Positions 10,719 to 16,887 of a DNA stretch of 64,000 bases are shown one piece after another; position 1 is the first letter of the stretch; every line of letters begins with the position of its first letter. Under the pieces are notes generated by a model. It had not been told where the DNA came from, did no database searches, and saw only the letters and a program-made list of their open reading frames with translations. Both the position numbers and the translations under genes were made by a program. This DNA comes from Phocaeicola plebeius DSM 17135 (GTDB taxonomy: Bacteria > Bacteroidota > Bacteroidia > Bacteroidales > Bacteroidaceae): positions 372,001-436,000 of the forward strand of contig NZ_DS990119.1 of the NCBI RefSeq assembly GCF_000187895.1, given 5' to 3'.

Positions 10719-12938
10719 TTATTGTATTAAAATTTCATCTAACCAGTGGTTATGGGTGGTTAACCCTGTTTCACTGGAATATTGTTCTCTATCAGGTAAT
10801 AAATATATTCCTTCAATGACTTCTTCCAGCAACCCTTGCTTCAATAAGGATTGGAAATCACGTTCATTGATATTGACCATAAAATTACCGATCTTTTTTG
10901 AAAGCTCGTATGAAAAACCATTTTTCTTGATTTTAGCTACAAATTCCAAACTATCCACATAATTTACAATTACATTTCGCCCTCTTTCTTCTATCAGTTT
11001 AAATGCTTGTGCTGCCTGCTCAAAATCCATCTCATTGATTCTCGAATTTTGCCTTAAAAGTCCTATTACTCCTTTCTCATCAAAGCTATTACAACGGCAA
11101 TATAACTGACGAAAATAAGTTGTCATCGCTTGCGGAGACAACCAATCGACAATCTTGCCCATACTTTTCCGAGCTTCATTCGCCTCACTTAAAGAACCCT
11201 TCGGCAAAGGTTTATCCAGATTGAAGACATAAGTATCTGCAATACCTAATCGTCCTTCACGGTTACACCTTCCAGCAGCTTGAAGTATGGAATCCAATCC
11301 TGCCTCCTGACGGAAGACTACCGGAAAGTCTATATCAACACCAGCCTCAATTAATTGCGTGGATATTACCCGAATAATCTTATTTGAGGTATCATTTAAC
11401 GCTTCCCGAATTCGTTCTATAGTCTGTCGTATATGTAAGGGACACATTCTGCGAGACAAATGAAAGACCAATCCTTCTTGTGGCATACGGCTAAATATTT
11501 CAAATGCATCATTGCGGGTATTTACAATACACAAGACTTTATCATACTGGGTTAGACGATGAACGATATCATCATAAAGACTACGAAAGTCATCAATATG
11601 AATATTAACACGACGCAATTTATCATGTAAATTCCAATTATTCGGAATAAGTTCTTCTACTTTCTTCAAACCATACAATTGAACTAGATTATTTGTTCCT
11701 TGATGATTGCCTGATAATATAGGCTGGCTTGCTGTAGTGAACAGGAAACTGACCCCAAACAAGCGTTGATAACTATCCATTGCATTTACAATAGGCTGCA
11801 AATACTCACGAGGTAAAGTTTGTATTTCATCTAAAATAACAACACTGTTTGCAATATTATGAAGTTTTCTGCACACTGATGGTTTATTCCCAAATAAAGA
11901 CTCAAAAAATTGAACATTGGTTGTCACAATAATCGGATAATCCCAATTCTCTGAAGCCAGACGTTGCTGTAACTCCAGTTGAGAACTATCCGGCTTATCT
12001 TTCCAAACTTCTTCAAAATCAAAAGATGAGTGATGTTCACATACATTCTCATCACCAAAAATCTTACGCAATATTGCTGCTGTTTGCACTATAATACTAG
12101 TATATGGAATGACGATTATAATTCTGTCTTTTCCATATTTTACAGCATGTTTTACAGCCCATAATAAAGATGACAATGTTTTACCTCCTCCAGTCGGCAC
12201 AGTTAAGGAGTAAAAACCAGGCTCTTTAATTGACTTTTCGCCACATAGATGCTGTATTTTTCTCCTTAGCTGATTCAATTCTGTCTGAGGGGAATTCTCA
12301 GACAATCCTGCTAAATAAGTTACCAATCGGGGCAATAACCCTGTCAAGGGAACGCCATTACCACGTTGGAAATAATTATTTTCATTCAAAAATCGCTCAG
12401 TATCAAGATAATCTGCATCAACCAAGCATGAAAATAACAAACGGATAAAATGATTTAAATCATCAGGTCCAAAACTCTTACCTGTGGGTATCAAATCTTT
12501 CTCAGTAAAATCAGGAACAGGAAATCTTACCCCGGAAGGAATATCATCATTCATCTTCGCATTAAAATCATAGCTATCGGATAAACCAGTATGATGTGAA
12601 GCTATCGGATATGATAAAAGTGGGAACAAATGGGGATAAAGCTTTCGTACTACAAGTGCACCGATAAATGCATGGGGAGTTCTACCCGCATATTTGAGAT
12701 CGGGCTTAAACCCTGAAACTTTCCGAATATATAACTGAAAAGAATCTTGTTCTTTTCCTATATCATGAAACTGCCCGATTATATATCCCATGCGGGCACA
12801 TCCAAAAGCTGAGGCAAACTTCTGCGTAAGCAAAGCTACTCCCTGTTGATGTACTTCATTAGACTGAAAGACCCACGAGTTGGCATCTCCGATATCTAAG
12901 CGTTTAAGGTGTGAAATATATTGAGGCTCTTGCATCAT
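10719..12938 (-). CDS. cas3: CRISPR-associated helicase-nuclease Cas3
   Basis: Recruited by Cascade to unwind and shred the target DNA. The 739-aa protein has an N-terminal HD nuclease domain (His58-Asp59 in GQFHDIGK, with later His residues in SHHTG), then an SF2 helicase: Walker A PTGGGKT (248-254), DEIQ box (370-373), and motif VI QAAGRCNREGR. The HD and helicase motifs look complete. It starts with two ATG codons in a row at 12938. The HU-like gene ends 18 nt upstream on the same strand, so cas3 is probably driven from the promoter before that gene. Confidence 0.97.
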   Translation of the reverse strand: MMQEPQYISHLKRLDIGDANSWVFQSNEVHQQGVALLTQKFASAFGCARMGYIIGQFHDIGKEQDSFQLYIRKVSGFKPDLKYAGRTPHAFIGALVVRKLYPHLFPLLSYPIASHHTGLSDSYDFNAKMNDDIPSGVRFPVPDFTEKDLIPTGKSFGPDDLNHFIRLLFSCLVDADYLDTERFLNENNYFQRGNGVPLTGLLPRLVTYLAGLSENSPQTELNQLRRKIQHLCGEKSIKEPGFYSLTVPTGGGKTLSSLLWAVKHAVKYGKDRIIIVIPYTSIIVQTAAILRKIFGDENVCEHHSSFDFEEVWKDKPDSSQLELQQRLASENWDYPIIVTTNVQFFESLFGNKPSVCRKLHNIANSVVILDEIQTLPREYLQPIVNAMDSYQRLFGVSFLFTTASQPILSGNHQGTNNLVQLYGLKKVEELIPNNWNLHDKLRRVNIHIDDFRSLYDDIVHRLTQYDKVLCIVNTRNDAFEIFSRMPQEGLVFHLSRRMCPLHIRQTIERIREALNDTSNKIIRVISTQLIEAGVDIDFPVVFRQEAGLDSILQAAGRCNREGRLGIADTYVFNLDKPLPKGSLSEANEARKSMGKIVDWLSPQAMTTYFRQLYCRCNSFDEKGVIGLLRQNSRINEMDFEQAAQAFKLIEERGRNVIVNYVDSLEFVAKIKKNGFSYELSKKIGNFMVNINERDFQSLLKQGLLEEVIEGIYLLPDREQYSSETGLTTHNHWLDEILIQ

Positions 12939-12956: not shown

Positions 12957-13553
12957 CTACTCCTTTACCACATACACCGGCTGATACTTCGTCCCCGCAT
13001 TCTTCAACACCCCTTCCTTCATTAGCTCCCGAATCACCCGCGTAGACTTCGACGAATTAAACCCAGTGAGCCGTTCAAAGTCGCGGCGTTGCAGGAAAGA
13101 GTGAGTCTTGAAATACTCCGCTAATTTCTTTTTCACCTCTTCCTCATCCAGCTTAGTAGAATGATGCGCCTCGTCTACCTTGCGCTCCAGATACACACTC
13201 TGAAAGCGGTCAATCAAATCCTTGTCGGGCGTAAACTTGATGCTTCTCACCTGTACATCATCATCCTTAATATACTTCGGATTAATGTCTGGCGCACATT
13301 TCAGGCTCAGACTGAAATAGCCGATTCCTTCCAGATGCACCGCATATCCGTTGCTCAGGTTCTCATAAAGCTCATCGTTCAGGGCTGTGATGACAGCTGC
13401 CACATCGGCTGGAGAGGCGGTACATTTCTTGCGTATCGCTTCACGGATTTCACGGGTGGTCACCACGTCTTTGGTAATCACTTTTGCATGCAACTTCGGT
13501 ACAGAAACTCCCTCCTTTACCGGATTCTCAAACAGGTCAAATTTTATAGCCAT
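12957..13553 (-). CDS. HU-like DNA-binding protein with C-terminal winged helix
   Basis: Residues about 1-125 resemble the Bacteroidetes HU-like family (MAIKFDLFENPVKEG..., TREIREAIRKKCTASPADV..., and GYAVHLEGIGYFSLSL, the arm-proximal strand). Residues about 135-198 look like a winged helix: KLAEYFKTHSFLQRRDFERL followed by STRVIRELMKEGVLKNAG and a terminal YQPVYVV strand. It should bind and bend DNA and could act as a regulator. It is the first gene of the probable cas operon, 18 nt upstream of cas3, and lies just downstream of a phased palindrome array. Its composition matches the flanking chromosome rather than the A+T-rich cas genes. A cas-regulating role is inference from position. Confidence 0.85.
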   Translation of the reverse strand: MAIKFDLFENPVKEGVSVPKLHAKVITKDVVTTREIREAIRKKCTASPADVAAVITALNDELYENLSNGYAVHLEGIGYFSLSLKCAPDINPKYIKDDDVQVRSIKFTPDKDLIDRFQSVYLERKVDEAHHSTKLDEEEVKKKLAEYFKTHSFLQRRDFERLTGFNSSKSTRVIRELMKEGVLKNAGTKYQPVYVVKE

Positions 13554-13600
13554 AATCGTTTTAGTTATATTGTAATTATACTTCTTTCGAAACGCTTATA

Positions 13601-13608
13601 CAAAAATA
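13601..13608 (-). promoter_or_regulatory. Predicted -7 element for the HU-like / cas operon
   Basis: TATTTTTG on the minus strand fits TAnnTTTG. It lies 47 nt before the ATG of the HU-like gene, and its upstream base is the first base of the palindrome array, so a protein bound there would cover the -33 region. Confidence 0.5.
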
Positions 13609-13697
13609 CCTCGACACGTAGCTGTCAAGGTCGCGACACGAACGTGACGAGACATCAGCACGAACGTGTCAAGACCTCGTCACGTACGTGTCGAGGT
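13608..13697. repeat. Four palindromes phased at exactly 22 bp, probable operator
   Basis: Four 10-bp palindromic cores occur at 13615-13624 (CACGTAGCTG, imperfect), 13637-13646 (CACGAACGTG), 13659-13668 (CACGAACGTG) and 13681-13690 (CACGTACGTG, perfect). Their centres are 22 bp apart each time, about two helical turns, which places all sites on one face of the DNA. The outermost units form a perfect 13-bp inverted repeat (13608-13620 with 13685-13697). The array fills the space between the helicase 3' end and the HU-like/cas promoter. Confidence 0.85.
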
Positions 13698-13767
13698 AAA
13701 TTTAACTCATTTTTTAAGAAAAAGCAAGGATTTGCCTTCTAAATTTCAAGAAGCTCATTCCCTATTT

Positions 13768-16700
13768 TTATACCACTTTCAGGTATTGCGGCATCACTGG
13801 TTTCTCCAGTTTCCAGGTGATGTTCATGGGGAAATCACCATGCGAAGAAACATAGTCCACAAGGCCGAAACAATGGAAAGGACAAGTGTTTCCAAAACCG
13901 TCTTTCTTTTCCTCACGCACAAAGAGCACAATCTTGTTATGCCGCTGCGGTTGCTCAGTGTAAATCCGTCCTCCACGGTTGTGATGGGAGTCAGTATTCT
14001 TGGACTGCCAATGGAAGTAATCCTTATTGATGACATAATCATCGTATTGCGTAGAAGGTGAAAAATCTTTGTCGGATTTGTTCAGGGTGACAAAGAGCAA
14101 GGTGGCATCGTATTCTGGCAAATTGAACACACCAGACACCGAACCTGACATTCTTTTCTCTTCAGTTTGCCGTCCAACCAAAGTGAATATCTCCTCACGG
14201 GTATAGCATCCATAAAGTTCAATGCAAGGTAATACCTCAGGGCCAAGCGGTGTGGTGGTAATTTCCAAATGTGACAACAAGTAAGACACGATTTCAGCAG
14301 CTTCTTGCTTGAAATACCGATAACGGTCATCATGCAGTAAAGCCAACGCCTGATACATGCCCATTTCTTTCAGCTCGGTTTTGTCGATTCGCTCCTGATA
14401 GAGATTATAGTAAAGCATAGTGGCATACAGACGCTTGTCTTCGTCCATATAACGTTTACTGCCCGACAGGAAATCGGCCACGAAATGCAAGTAAGAGACG
14501 GTGTTATGATGTATCAGATTGCCCATGCCTTTCTCCAGGCGTCGGGTAATCGCATCATCGGTATAAGAGATACGCCCTGCGGCCCGTTTGAGGGAGGTCC
14601 AACAATTGTTACCCACATATACCACACGGATGTCTTGTCCATTATTCTCCAGGAATTGGGTAAGCGTGGGCAGCGTGGTGTAGGAATTGATTTCTTTCAC
14701 CAGGCGATTTTTGTTGTAGATGGCTTGCTGAATGTTCTCTAAGATGTATTGTCGGGCCTGCTTTTCCATAATAATGCTGCACCCAGTAGGCAAAAGGGTG
14801 AAACCGTTCGCTATCTGCTGGGCAATATTCTTTTCGGGACGCAGAGTAAGGGCACGAAATTTTGAAGCGAAATCATACTTCTTATGAGCTTGTGCCACAA
14901 AATCGAGGACGGTGAGTTCGGTCTTCCCTGGAGAAAGACGGAGACCACGGCCCAACTGTTGCAGGAAGATGGTCAAACTGTCTGTAGGACGGAGGAAAAG
15001 TACCGTATCTACTTCGGGTATATCAACTCCTTCATTGAAGATGTCGACCACACACAGGTAGTGCACCAGCCCGTTACGAAGGTCTTCTGCCAGTTGCTTA
15101 CGTTGCGGTTGCGGCGTATCGGAAGTCAGGCTTTTTGCATTGAATCCGTATTTCTGGAGCTGAAGGGCCATAAAGTCGGCATGTTTCTTATTGACGCAGA
15201 AGCACAGAGCACGACAGGTGTATTCATCGGCCAGGTAACGGTGTAAGGCATCTACGATGTGTTGTGCCCGTTCGGGTACGCACAGTTTGTCGGCCAGTCG
15301 GTCGATAACATAACGTTGTCCGTTCCAGAGGGAATCATCAGTCAGGTCAGTGTCATCGGTCACGCACAGGTATTGGAAGGGAGTCAGCAATCCGGCCTGA
15401 AGGGCTTGCGGAAGGCGTATCTCGGCACTGATGCGTCCGCCAAAATCCGGGCGAAGGTCTTTTCCGTCCATACGTTCCGGGGTGGCGGTAAGTCCAATCA
15501 ACAATTGAGGATGAAAATGCGAAAAGAGTTTCCGATAGCTGTCGGCCTGGCTATGATGAGCTTCGTCGATGACGATGTAGTCGTAATAATCGGCCGGGAG
15601 CTGCGAAAACAGGGCTTCAAACCGTGAGTTGAACATGGAGATAGAGACAAACAGATGGGCATAGTCGGCCTCGGTTTGAGGAGCTTCATTACCGACCCAC
15701 AACGTGCCGAAATTGGCGTCTTGCAACACGCTGCGGTAGGTGTGTAAGGACTGGCGAAGGATTTCTTCACGATGGGCGGTGAACAGGATGCGACTGGTCC
15801 GCCCTACTCCTGTCTGCTGTTGGCAGAAGGACTGATAATCGAAAGCGGAAATCACGGTCTTTCCCGTACCAGTGGCCGCCACAACCAGGTTACGGAAGTT
15901 GCCACACTCCTCACGCTCTACTTTCAGTTTATCTAAAATCTGCTTCTGGTGTGGGAGCAAAGAATAGCGTTGGTACACGAAAGTATCCGGTTTTCCTTTG
16001 AAGGTGTTGCGATGCAATTCCTGTTGGAACTTTTCAATGCCTCCTAGCCGGAAATCTTCAAAGTTCGGGCTGTTCCAGTACAAGTCGAAGGTGGCCAGCG
16101 CGGTCTTGATGATGTGCGGATTTTCTACACTCGTCACGCGCATGTTCCATTCCAATCCGTCGGTCTGTGCCGACTTAGACAGGTTGGACGAACCGATATA
16201 GGCAGTGTGCATGCCGGAATTACGCACAAAAATGTAAGCCTTGGCATGGAGACGTTCGATGTCGGTTTGATAAGAAATATGAATTTCCGTATGAGGTAGT
16301 TCGGCAAGTTGCTGCACGGCCTTAGTCTCGGTCGCCCCGCAATAAGTTGTGGTGATGATGCGTAAGCGGGTGCCTTCGCGTTGGCAGAACTTCTTCAAGT
16401 CATCCAACAGCAAGCGCACACCGGAGAGCTTCAGAAAAGAAACAATAAAATAAATCTCGTCGGCACTGGTAATTTCCCGTCGAATTTCCTCGCCCAATGA
16501 AAGGACACTGTTTCCACCCGTAAACAGGTTGCTCACCCGGAAACCGGATTGTGGGCGGACGGTTTCTGAACGACTGTGCTTTTGCAGGAGGTTCTTTTGC
16601 TGGGTCATCACCTCCATCAAGAGGTTGGAAGTGTCGGCTATCTGCACTTCTTCCACAAGCCCGTACTCGGCCAATATCCGGTTGACCAGTGTCATCCGGT

Positions 16701-16887
16701 CGTGCATATCTTCCGTGTCTTCCAGTTTCTGCCGGATGGCTTTTGCCAGATAATCCGCTAAAATCTTAGGGGATTCGGCCGCGTCTATTTGTTCGCGCAG
16801 GCAAACCAACTGCTGGGATTCAGCCTCCTGTATATCTCGTTCAACTTCCTGATTGATAATATTCTCGTAGATTCCTTTCTTTAACAT
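13768..16887 (-). CDS. PLD-like nuclease / SF2 helicase / DUF3427 protein
   Basis: A 1039-aa three-part protein. Residues about 115-260 contain a phospholipase-D-like site: HAKAYIF (His214, Lys216) with GSSNLS. Residues about 310-700 are an SF2 helicase: ATGTGKT Walker A (338-344), DEAH (441-444), a LIGLTATPERMDG motif III region and a QQLGRGLRL motif VI. The C-terminal ~300 residues resemble DUF3427. Such proteins are large DNA translocases or nucleases that often sit in defence islands. It is not close enough to share an operon with the cas genes: 214 bp holding the palindrome array lie between. The gene looks intact, and the ATG at 16887 gives a full N-terminal helical region. Confidence 0.9.
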   Translation of the reverse strand: MLKKGIYENIINQEVERDIQEAESQQLVCLREQIDAAESPKILADYLAKAIRQKLEDTEDMHDRMTLVNRILAEYGLVEEVQIADTSNLLMEVMTQQKNLLQKHSRSETVRPQSGFRVSNLFTGGNSVLSLGEEIRREITSADEIYFIVSFLKLSGVRLLLDDLKKFCQREGTRLRIITTTYCGATETKAVQQLAELPHTEIHISYQTDIERLHAKAYIFVRNSGMHTAYIGSSNLSKSAQTDGLEWNMRVTSVENPHIIKTALATFDLYWNSPNFEDFRLGGIEKFQQELHRNTFKGKPDTFVYQRYSLLPHQKQILDKLKVEREECGNFRNLVVAATGTGKTVISAFDYQSFCQQQTGVGRTSRILFTAHREEILRQSLHTYRSVLQDANFGTLWVGNEAPQTEADYAHLFVSISMFNSRFEALFSQLPADYYDYIVIDEAHHSQADSYRKLFSHFHPQLLIGLTATPERMDGKDLRPDFGGRISAEIRLPQALQAGLLTPFQYLCVTDDTDLTDDSLWNGQRYVIDRLADKLCVPERAQHIVDALHRYLADEYTCRALCFCVNKKHADFMALQLQKYGFNAKSLTSDTPQPQRKQLAEDLRNGLVHYLCVVDIFNEGVDIPEVDTVLFLRPTDSLTIFLQQLGRGLRLSPGKTELTVLDFVAQAHKKYDFASKFRALTLRPEKNIAQQIANGFTLLPTGCSIIMEKQARQYILENIQQAIYNKNRLVKEINSYTTLPTLTQFLENNGQDIRVVYVGNNCWTSLKRAAGRISYTDDAITRRLEKGMGNLIHHNTVSYLHFVADFLSGSKRYMDEDKRLYATMLYYNLYQERIDKTELKEMGMYQALALLHDDRYRYFKQEAAEIVSYLLSHLEITTTPLGPEVLPCIELYGCYTREEIFTLVGRQTEEKRMSGSVSGVFNLPEYDATLLFVTLNKSDKDFSPSTQYDDYVINKDYFHWQSKNTDSHHNRGGRIYTEQPQRHNKIVLFVREEKKDGFGNTCPFHCFGLVDYVSSHGDFPMNITWKLEKPVMPQYLKVV

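Follow-up and report, generated by a model that had tools for sequence, protein, structure and literature searches.

The window analysed here, a stretch of 64,000 nucleotides from the genome of Phocaeicola plebeius DSM 17135 (contig NZ_DS990119.1), contains a gene for an HU-like protein with a C-terminal winged helix (here HU-wHTH), a type I-C cas3 gene behind it and an array of four palindromes in front of it. The following features were assigned:

10719-12938, minus strand: cas3 (type I-C), possibly co-transcribed with the HU gene (Cas3c model, 2.3e-197; ORF coordinates)
12957-13553, minus strand: HU-wHTH protein of 198 amino acids, proposed binder of the array (PF18291 HU-HIG, 111.8 bits; Pfam cut-off, 26.2)
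about 13590-13718, no strand: whole dispersed element, i.e. array plus conserved arms (aligned array ends and arm consensus; limits approximate)
13590-13614: arm facing the HU gene
13601-13608, minus strand: TATTTTTG, which fits the Bacteroides -7 promoter element and points towards the HU gene (sequence)
13615-13624, no strand: dyad unit 1, degenerate core CACGTAGCTG, closest to the HU gene (sequence and 22-bp register)
13637-13646, no strand: dyad unit 2, core CACGAACGTG (sequence)
13659-13668, no strand: dyad unit 3, core CACGAACGTG (sequence)
13681-13690, no strand: dyad unit 4, core CACGTACGTG (sequence)
13691-13718: arm on the other side

Direct reading of positions 13608 to 13697 places the dyad centres at 13619.5, 13641.5, 13663.5 and 13685.5, i.e. 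at a spacing of exactly 22 bp, as given in a preliminary description of the locus. The perfect inverted repeat of the outer units, described there as 13 bp long, in fact comprises 14 bp (13607-13620 and 13685-13698), and the conserved arms enlarge the element beyond the earlier claim to about 130 bp. The octamer touching the array, TATTTTTG, fits TAnnTTTG, the Bacteroides -7 consensus, in agreement with its earlier assignment. Since an exact -33 TTTG is absent at the usual distance (CTTG is found 17 bases upstream), the octamer is regarded as a putative promoter element only.

The core CACGnnCGTG occurs three times in the window, always within the array, with 0.54 occurrences expected (three were reached by 1 of 100 shuffles). 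Genome-wide, single cores are only in mild excess (52 versus 40 for the reversed pattern), whereas core pairs in 22-bp phase, allowing three mismatches, number 22 versus 0. The special feature of the array is the 22-bp phase rather than the single core.

The HU-wHTH protein consists of an HU domain (residues 1 to about 124) and a C-terminal winged helix (about 137 to 198). Its AlphaFold model has three helices and two strands at residues 137 to 196, with a mean pLDDT of 78 to 87 per 10-residue block from residue 141 on, and low confidence in the HU part. The best PDB sequence matches are IHF/HU, the match to NCBIfam TIGR01201 stays below threshold (62.2 versus 68.6 bits), and a fold search with the whole model returned wHTH regulators among its matches, none with E below 0.001. 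The C-terminal part can be aligned across homologues. The start codon of the gene lies 61 bp from the nearest array core, and cas3 begins 18 bp behind its stop codon (ORF coordinates), so shared transcription of both genes is likely in this genome. The gene upstream of the array (13768-16887, minus strand) matches a type IV methyl-directed restriction enzyme in PADLOC (9e-199); HU gene, array and cas genes thus sit among defence genes.

Phased arrays upstream of HU-wHTH genes

The two-turn spacing had been taken as a hint at cooperative binding by an oligomer, possibly the adjacent HU-like protein, which predicts phased sites upstream of homologous genes as well. In a protein search of 60 genomes, ten homologues stand out with 49% identity or more (E up to 1e-66), and after a sharp gap the next proteins have 40% and lower. 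All ten are encoded, one or two each, in the six genomes with 15 or more array pairs, and G015, G018, G022 and G028 have two apiece. In G018 and G028, an array with GAG-type spacers lies upstream of one HU gene and an array with ACG-type spacers upstream of the other. Upstream of more distant homologues, too, arrays with roughly four 22-bp-phased units were recognised by eye, with different cores, e.g. ATCACNNNNGTGAT, TGACCTNNGTCA and TTTCACNNNAGTGAAA.

When repeat lags of the upstream regions were compared with 50 to 60 dinucleotide shuffles per gene, 23 of 29 genes beat all shuffles (21 at lag 22, two at lag 21; L235, which has no open frame, was dropped from this set). A second set of homologues gave 32 of 38 (25 at lag 22, six at 21, one at 23), counting L308, which is the same gene as L241 of the first set. 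From public Bacteroides, Parabacteroides, Phocaeicola and phage records, nine of ten genes beat all shuffles, with all ten at 22. L371 and L372 of P. massiliensis appear to represent the same genes as L223 and L280. A significant array was absent from 6/29, 6/38 and 1/10 homologues, and the top lags included 22 in 4 of 31 downstream control regions. An array of this kind is therefore present upstream of the gene in most tested HU-wHTH homologues, and the conserved phasing agrees with the proposed tie between the sites and the adjacent gene. Neither of two further HU-HIG genes in this genome showed a significant 22-bp array in the same test: L019 repeats at 14 bp, and the 22-bp lag of L020 was reached by 10 of 60 shuffles.

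An independent test that scored palindromes only (27 periods, 30 shuffles, L308 left out) ranked 22 bp first as dyad period in 45 of 76 upstream regions and joint first in nine more. All 30 shuffles were beaten by 34 regions, 30 of them at 22 bp; in the window's own region, a period of 15 bp (score 21) came out marginally above 22 bp (20). A -7-like octamer adjoins the array at the HU promoter, and in several homologues the array lies just downstream of such an octamer (by eye). At L087 of B. caecigallinarum (about 1655-2250), an HU-wHTH copy has no ORF of 150 amino acids, its later part being covered only by a 144-amino-acid ORF, and the array is kept.

Array similarity tracks protein similarity, with r = 0.70 for the HU domain and 0.65 for the wHTH (23 of 31 aligned proteins used); the latter value was reached by none of 2,000 permutations. 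As readers of the array, wHTH and HU domain are not separable (partial r of 0.14 and 0.39; 0.14 was reached by 50 of 2,000 permutations). Pairs of the ATCAC type were detected in eight of ten searched genomes (none in G000, i.e. this genome, and G034; reversed control zero in all), in seven of the eight at least in part away from the HU gene and in G005 at the HU gene only. The 20 to 21 forward matches in G011 and G020 form seven four-unit arrays each, including that of the HU gene, and both genomes also carry arrays of a second type. On G011:C1 (5,163,189 bp), all seven ATCAC-type arrays lie between 0.78 and 2.91 Mb. TGACC-type pairs were found in three of eight genomes (G013, G014 and G019), each time also away from the HU gene, and not in G000, G003, G008, G009 or G012 (reversed control, 0 to 1 per strand). 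Dispersal thus extends to two other core types, in genomes where HU genes carry an array of the matching type. In G025, both dispersed arrays look by eye like the one upstream of that genome's own homologue (L273). G007 has a few CACG-type arrays and no close homologue in the 60-genome protein search.

Genes seen behind HU genes elsewhere are DNA methyltransferase-like (in G023, for example), small lipoprotein or umuC-like genes, all named by eye. In the ORF lists of ten other HU loci, covering 0.75 to 2.6 kb behind the HU gene, no cas3 was seen beside it (names by eye), and blastn of the array flanks matched the window locus to seven places in other genomes via the HU gene only. In public Bacteroides records (L367 to L369 and L375), HU-wHTH genes stand divergently beside genes of the BT4734/BF3469 family, DUF3874 or VapE-domain genes.

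Dispersed copies of the array and their turnover

The 22 core pairs of this genome make up seven four-unit arrays (C3:73230, C3:313756, C3:431036, C5:79472, C6:266552, C9:52071 and C16:385615, the last being the window copy), with one pair being a run-on past the last unit at C9. Conserved arms extend about 25 to 28 bp past the outer cores. The array ends resemble TACCTCGACACG...CGTGTCGAGGTA with small deviations, and the C5 array has no such sequence at one end. Neighbouring genes are unrelated, e.g. lysS-like and parC-like genes (by eye) and the tmRNA gene.

Core pairs at 22 bp with at most one mismatch occur in nine of 60 genomes, all of the same genus: 15 in this genome, 39 in G015, 41 in G018, 18 in G022, 19 in G023 and 37 in G028, with low counts in G007 (7), G025 (2) and G016 (1). 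The reversed control gave none in all 60 genomes at one mismatch. Four-unit arrays with up to three mismatches number 17 in G018, 14 in G028 (three of which overlap within one longer array), 10 in G022, 8 in G023, 2 in G025 and 1 in G007, a count that did not include G015. A three-unit pattern scan of an 84,980-species genome collection returned 85 stretches; the 80 listed titles name Phocaeicola, 'Bacteroides' caecigallinarum or mediterraneensis, Prevotella-like and other Bacteroidales, and one chance match in Streptomyces. Scan loci, loci of the 60-genome search and six loci of this genome together gave 97 distinct arrays, with four units in 83, five in 8, three in 4 and six in 2 (Streptomyces L128 was included here and omitted afterwards; L013 was not included). 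IMG/VR, searched with the exact two-unit pattern, plasmids and phages contained no match to the array, and a phage or plasmid origin was rejected. Six phage records and 17 'plasmid' records contain HU-wHTH homologues; one or more of the 'plasmids' carries ribosomal-protein and mutL genes and is thus apparently a piece of chromosome.

Among the CACGnnCGTG cores of the 97 arrays (own genome and L041 to L140), the central dinucleotide is TT in 146, TA in 125, AA in 121 and another in four cases. Central AT, which the search pattern allowed and which would create GATC, was never seen. Five loci of the CAMVIB Prevotellaceae MAG (L058, L059, L064, L071 and L080) have extra tandem repeats of about ATCCCCTAGGCGATGAAGGTGA outside the four CACG units, seemingly in the same 22-bp phase by eye. 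In the six-unit array L088/L193 (G028:C232), a block of two units is exactly duplicated, a possible snapshot of unit gain.

Eleven sites were queried in four genomes for their state in relatives, and for four of them a relative aligned without the array and some tens of surrounding bases. For L178 and L182, a relative appears to have a gap of array size. The empty sites show no clean target duplication and are too diverged for a duplication to show. At 18 sites shared between close species (13 of the CACG type and five of the ATCAC type, in this order below), the fixed core positions are identical in 392/416 and 188/200 cases (94%), the spacers in 303/468 and 85/120 (65 to 71%), the core centres in 65/104 and 43/80 and the flanks in 1689/2392 and 783/958. 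Array contents thus change faster than their surroundings and the read-out positions are kept, the core figure being partly a selection of cases because the arrays were found by their cores.

At 14 of these 18 sites, an array from elsewhere is closer in sequence than the one at the corresponding position, a result that is the best of many comparisons. In-place inversion was rejected as a general cause of differing contents, since the inverted alignment was better in only three of the 18 pairs. At variable positions, the window array is 0.94, 0.91 and 0.86 identical to three other arrays of this genome and 0.86 identical to its positional counterpart in G023, which suggests that contents may have been copied or converted between sites. 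Ranked as a hub of similarity among the arrays of its genome (L201 left out), the HU-linked array is 1 of 7 in G000, 1 of 17 in G018, 1 of 8 in G023, 9 of 11 in G028, 4 of 7 in G011 and 2 of 7 in G020. With first rank in just three of six genomes, its role as a master copy is only suggestive.

Possible function of the arrays

We consider it probable (roughly 0.6) that the array is a private platform of the HU-wHTH protein, on which four dimers would assemble along one face of the DNA and control their own gene, and that the dispersed copies would serve as chromosomal anchors. One dimer per 22-bp dyad would be natural because an HU-type dimer carries two winged helices; these would read the half-sites CACG and CGTG, and the HU bodies would bend the DNA between them. 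Four dyads of two turns each would place four dimers side by side on one face. The position of the array beside or just downstream of a -7-like octamer fits autorepression, in that the complex, lying over or beside the promoter, would limit expression of the HU-wHTH gene itself. At the dispersed arrays, the same protein may shape or link the chromosome. In favour of this reading are the seven arrays of this genome, the restriction of close homologues to the array-rich genomes, the phased repeats upstream of most homologues, the match between dispersed types and resident HU genes, the correlation of array with protein similarity, the conserved core positions and the modelled wHTH. Against it speak the arrays of G007, which lacks a close homologue, the homologues and the two other HU-HIG genes with no significant 22-bp array, the ATCAC-type matches of G005 at the HU gene only, the inseparability of wHTH and HU domain as readers, the palindrome scores (34 of 76 regions above all shuffles, and 15 bp marginally ahead in the window's region), the low model confidence in the HU part and the fold search with no match below E 0.001. 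The cas operon directly behind the HU gene would share the promoter control as a by-product, and control of the cas genes by the array is possible in this one genome.

Alternatively, the dispersed arrays could be REP/BIME- or MITE-like mobile or parasitic repeats derived from the HU operator, bound incidentally and useless to the cell, which we regard as unlikely. The arrays are extragenic, multi-copy and palindromic, and only 3 of 44 are overlapped by an ORF of our own calling (L201, L204 and L207, the last antisense to the HU gene). Array-less sites in close relatives (four of 11 queried), positions in gaps of every gene orientation, the high identities of the window array to three arrays of the same genome (0.94, 0.91 and 0.86), the top hub rank of the HU-linked array in three of six genomes, the faster turnover of array contents than of flanks and the closer likeness to another array at 14 of 18 shared sites, a best-of-many comparison, would all agree with mobility. 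However, Y1 (RAYT-type, PF01797) transposases are absent from this genome and the seven others with CACG-type arrays (G007, G015, G018, G022, G023, G025 and G028) as well as from G011 and G020, and a REP/RAYT system was rejected as the cognate enzyme. Among 21 genomes, with G013, G014 and G019 outside the test, such a transposase was found only in G017 and G002, which has one ATCAC-type place. The consensus ends are TCGAGGTA or TAACGCTTTC, with no GTAG-like foot beside a single hairpin. No clean target duplication was seen at the diverged empty sites, the arms of the GAG type are conserved yet do not pair up as inverted copies at the same locus, and the 94% identity of core positions also argues against useless repeats, though finding arrays by their cores favours such a figure.

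That the HU-wHTH protein is a transcription factor of a classical regulon, with the arrays as operators of 7 to 17 target genes including the cas operon, appears improbable. Some arrays do lie upstream of genes (in the window, in a lysS-like/nitrilase-like gap and at a parC-like gene, names by eye), and the array in front of the HU gene abuts a -7 element. Arrays, however, have no bias to promoters. By our own ORF picks, 44 arrays in four genomes lie in 24 tandem, 10 convergent and only five divergent gaps, with five undetermined. In a second set of named loci, with gene calls likewise our own, 50 array gaps comprise 21 tandem, 16 divergent and 13 convergent cases, and 91 other gaps of at least 150 bp comprise 46, 33 and 12; the share of convergent gaps (13/50 versus 12/91) is thus the reverse of an operator bias. 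Because the dispersed arrays are free of promoter bias, an architectural role as chromosomal anchors would be more likely for them than membership in a regulon.

It is very improbable that the array works as RNA, i.e. as a terminator or structured hairpins, instead of duplex DNA. Hairpins could form from the palindromes, and within-locus arm identity slightly exceeds permutation for the ATCAC type (reached by 74 of 2,000) and the ACG type (161 of 2,000), but GAG-type arms lack a within-locus match (1,959 of 2,000 permutations reach the observed value), and both the helical phase of 22 bp and the independence of orientation are as expected of duplex DNA. Rfam, run on seven loci, gave the tmRNA beside one array and three non-credible matches, and an RNA element was rejected.

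An operator specific to type I-C cas genes, as the preliminary description had considered, can be dismissed almost outright: the array does lie one gene upstream of cas3, and cas3 18 bp behind the HU stop codon, but cas3 was not seen adjoining the HU gene at ten other listed HU loci, and six copies of the array exist at other places in the genome, with no adjacent cas gene recognised. Of the earlier suggestion that the array governs the HU-like gene and possibly the cas genes, the tie to the HU gene is supported and a general link to cas is not.

Extending the platform reading to the whole family, we tentatively propose that the Bacteroidales may have a large family of HU-wHTH proteins that each own a private four-dyad 'address', which would have been copied from the promoter to intergenic sites, with contents rewritten time and again and read-out positions kept; such a self-spreading, multi-specific chromosome-addressing system would have captured a CRISPR operon here. 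Classical HU bends DNA with little sequence specificity. In gut Bacteroidales, the HU branch described here seems to have gained several distinct specificities, each legible at its own promoter, and protein-to-site assignments would be predictable from sequence alone. If true, this would provide specific, mappable sites for chromosome organisation in Bacteroidota and a clear example of a DNA-binding protein that diversified together with its sites. The genome G011 is complete and has seven arrays of a single type, among them the array of its HU gene.

Relation to known systems

The adjacent protein is a member of the HU-HIG family (PF18291), which combines an HU domain with a wHTH, an Ig or a glycine-rich part, and it has the wHTH form. 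Clades of HU-HIG proteins were reportedly defined by Burroughs in 2017. Private phased operator arrays for this family were not described in the literature searched, which had subscription papers mostly outside its range and included the accessible portions of PMC3733652, PMC6006769 and PMC3969353; the phased arrays of HU-wHTH genes thus appear undescribed within that literature. According to PMC3969353, the HU protein PG0121 of P. gingivalis is linked to a 77-bp inverted repeat upstream of an operon. It is comparable in its Bacteroidales origin and in its link to such a large repeat, and differs in its size of about 10 kDa (PMC3969353), which is too small for an added wHTH.

REP/BIME elements with their RAYT (TnpA-REP) proteins are alike in being short extragenic palindromic repeats that are type-matched to a resident protein gene carrying copies. 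Their Bacteroidetes subclass 2.6 has 'atypical' flanking structures, yet is defined by its transposase, as far as the available text of PMC6006769 goes. The arrays reported here differ by the absence of a Y1 transposase (in the genomes with CACG-type arrays), by four units at 22 bp and by an HU-fusion partner.

MatP/matS, Noc/NBS and ParB/parS are site-specific chromosome organisers. Like the system proposed here, they comprise a DNA-binding protein and its specific sites, from a handful to dozens, scattered over one chromosome, whereas here the fold is unrelated, the sites form four-site arrays that are present or absent between close species, and one protein family would have several private specificities.
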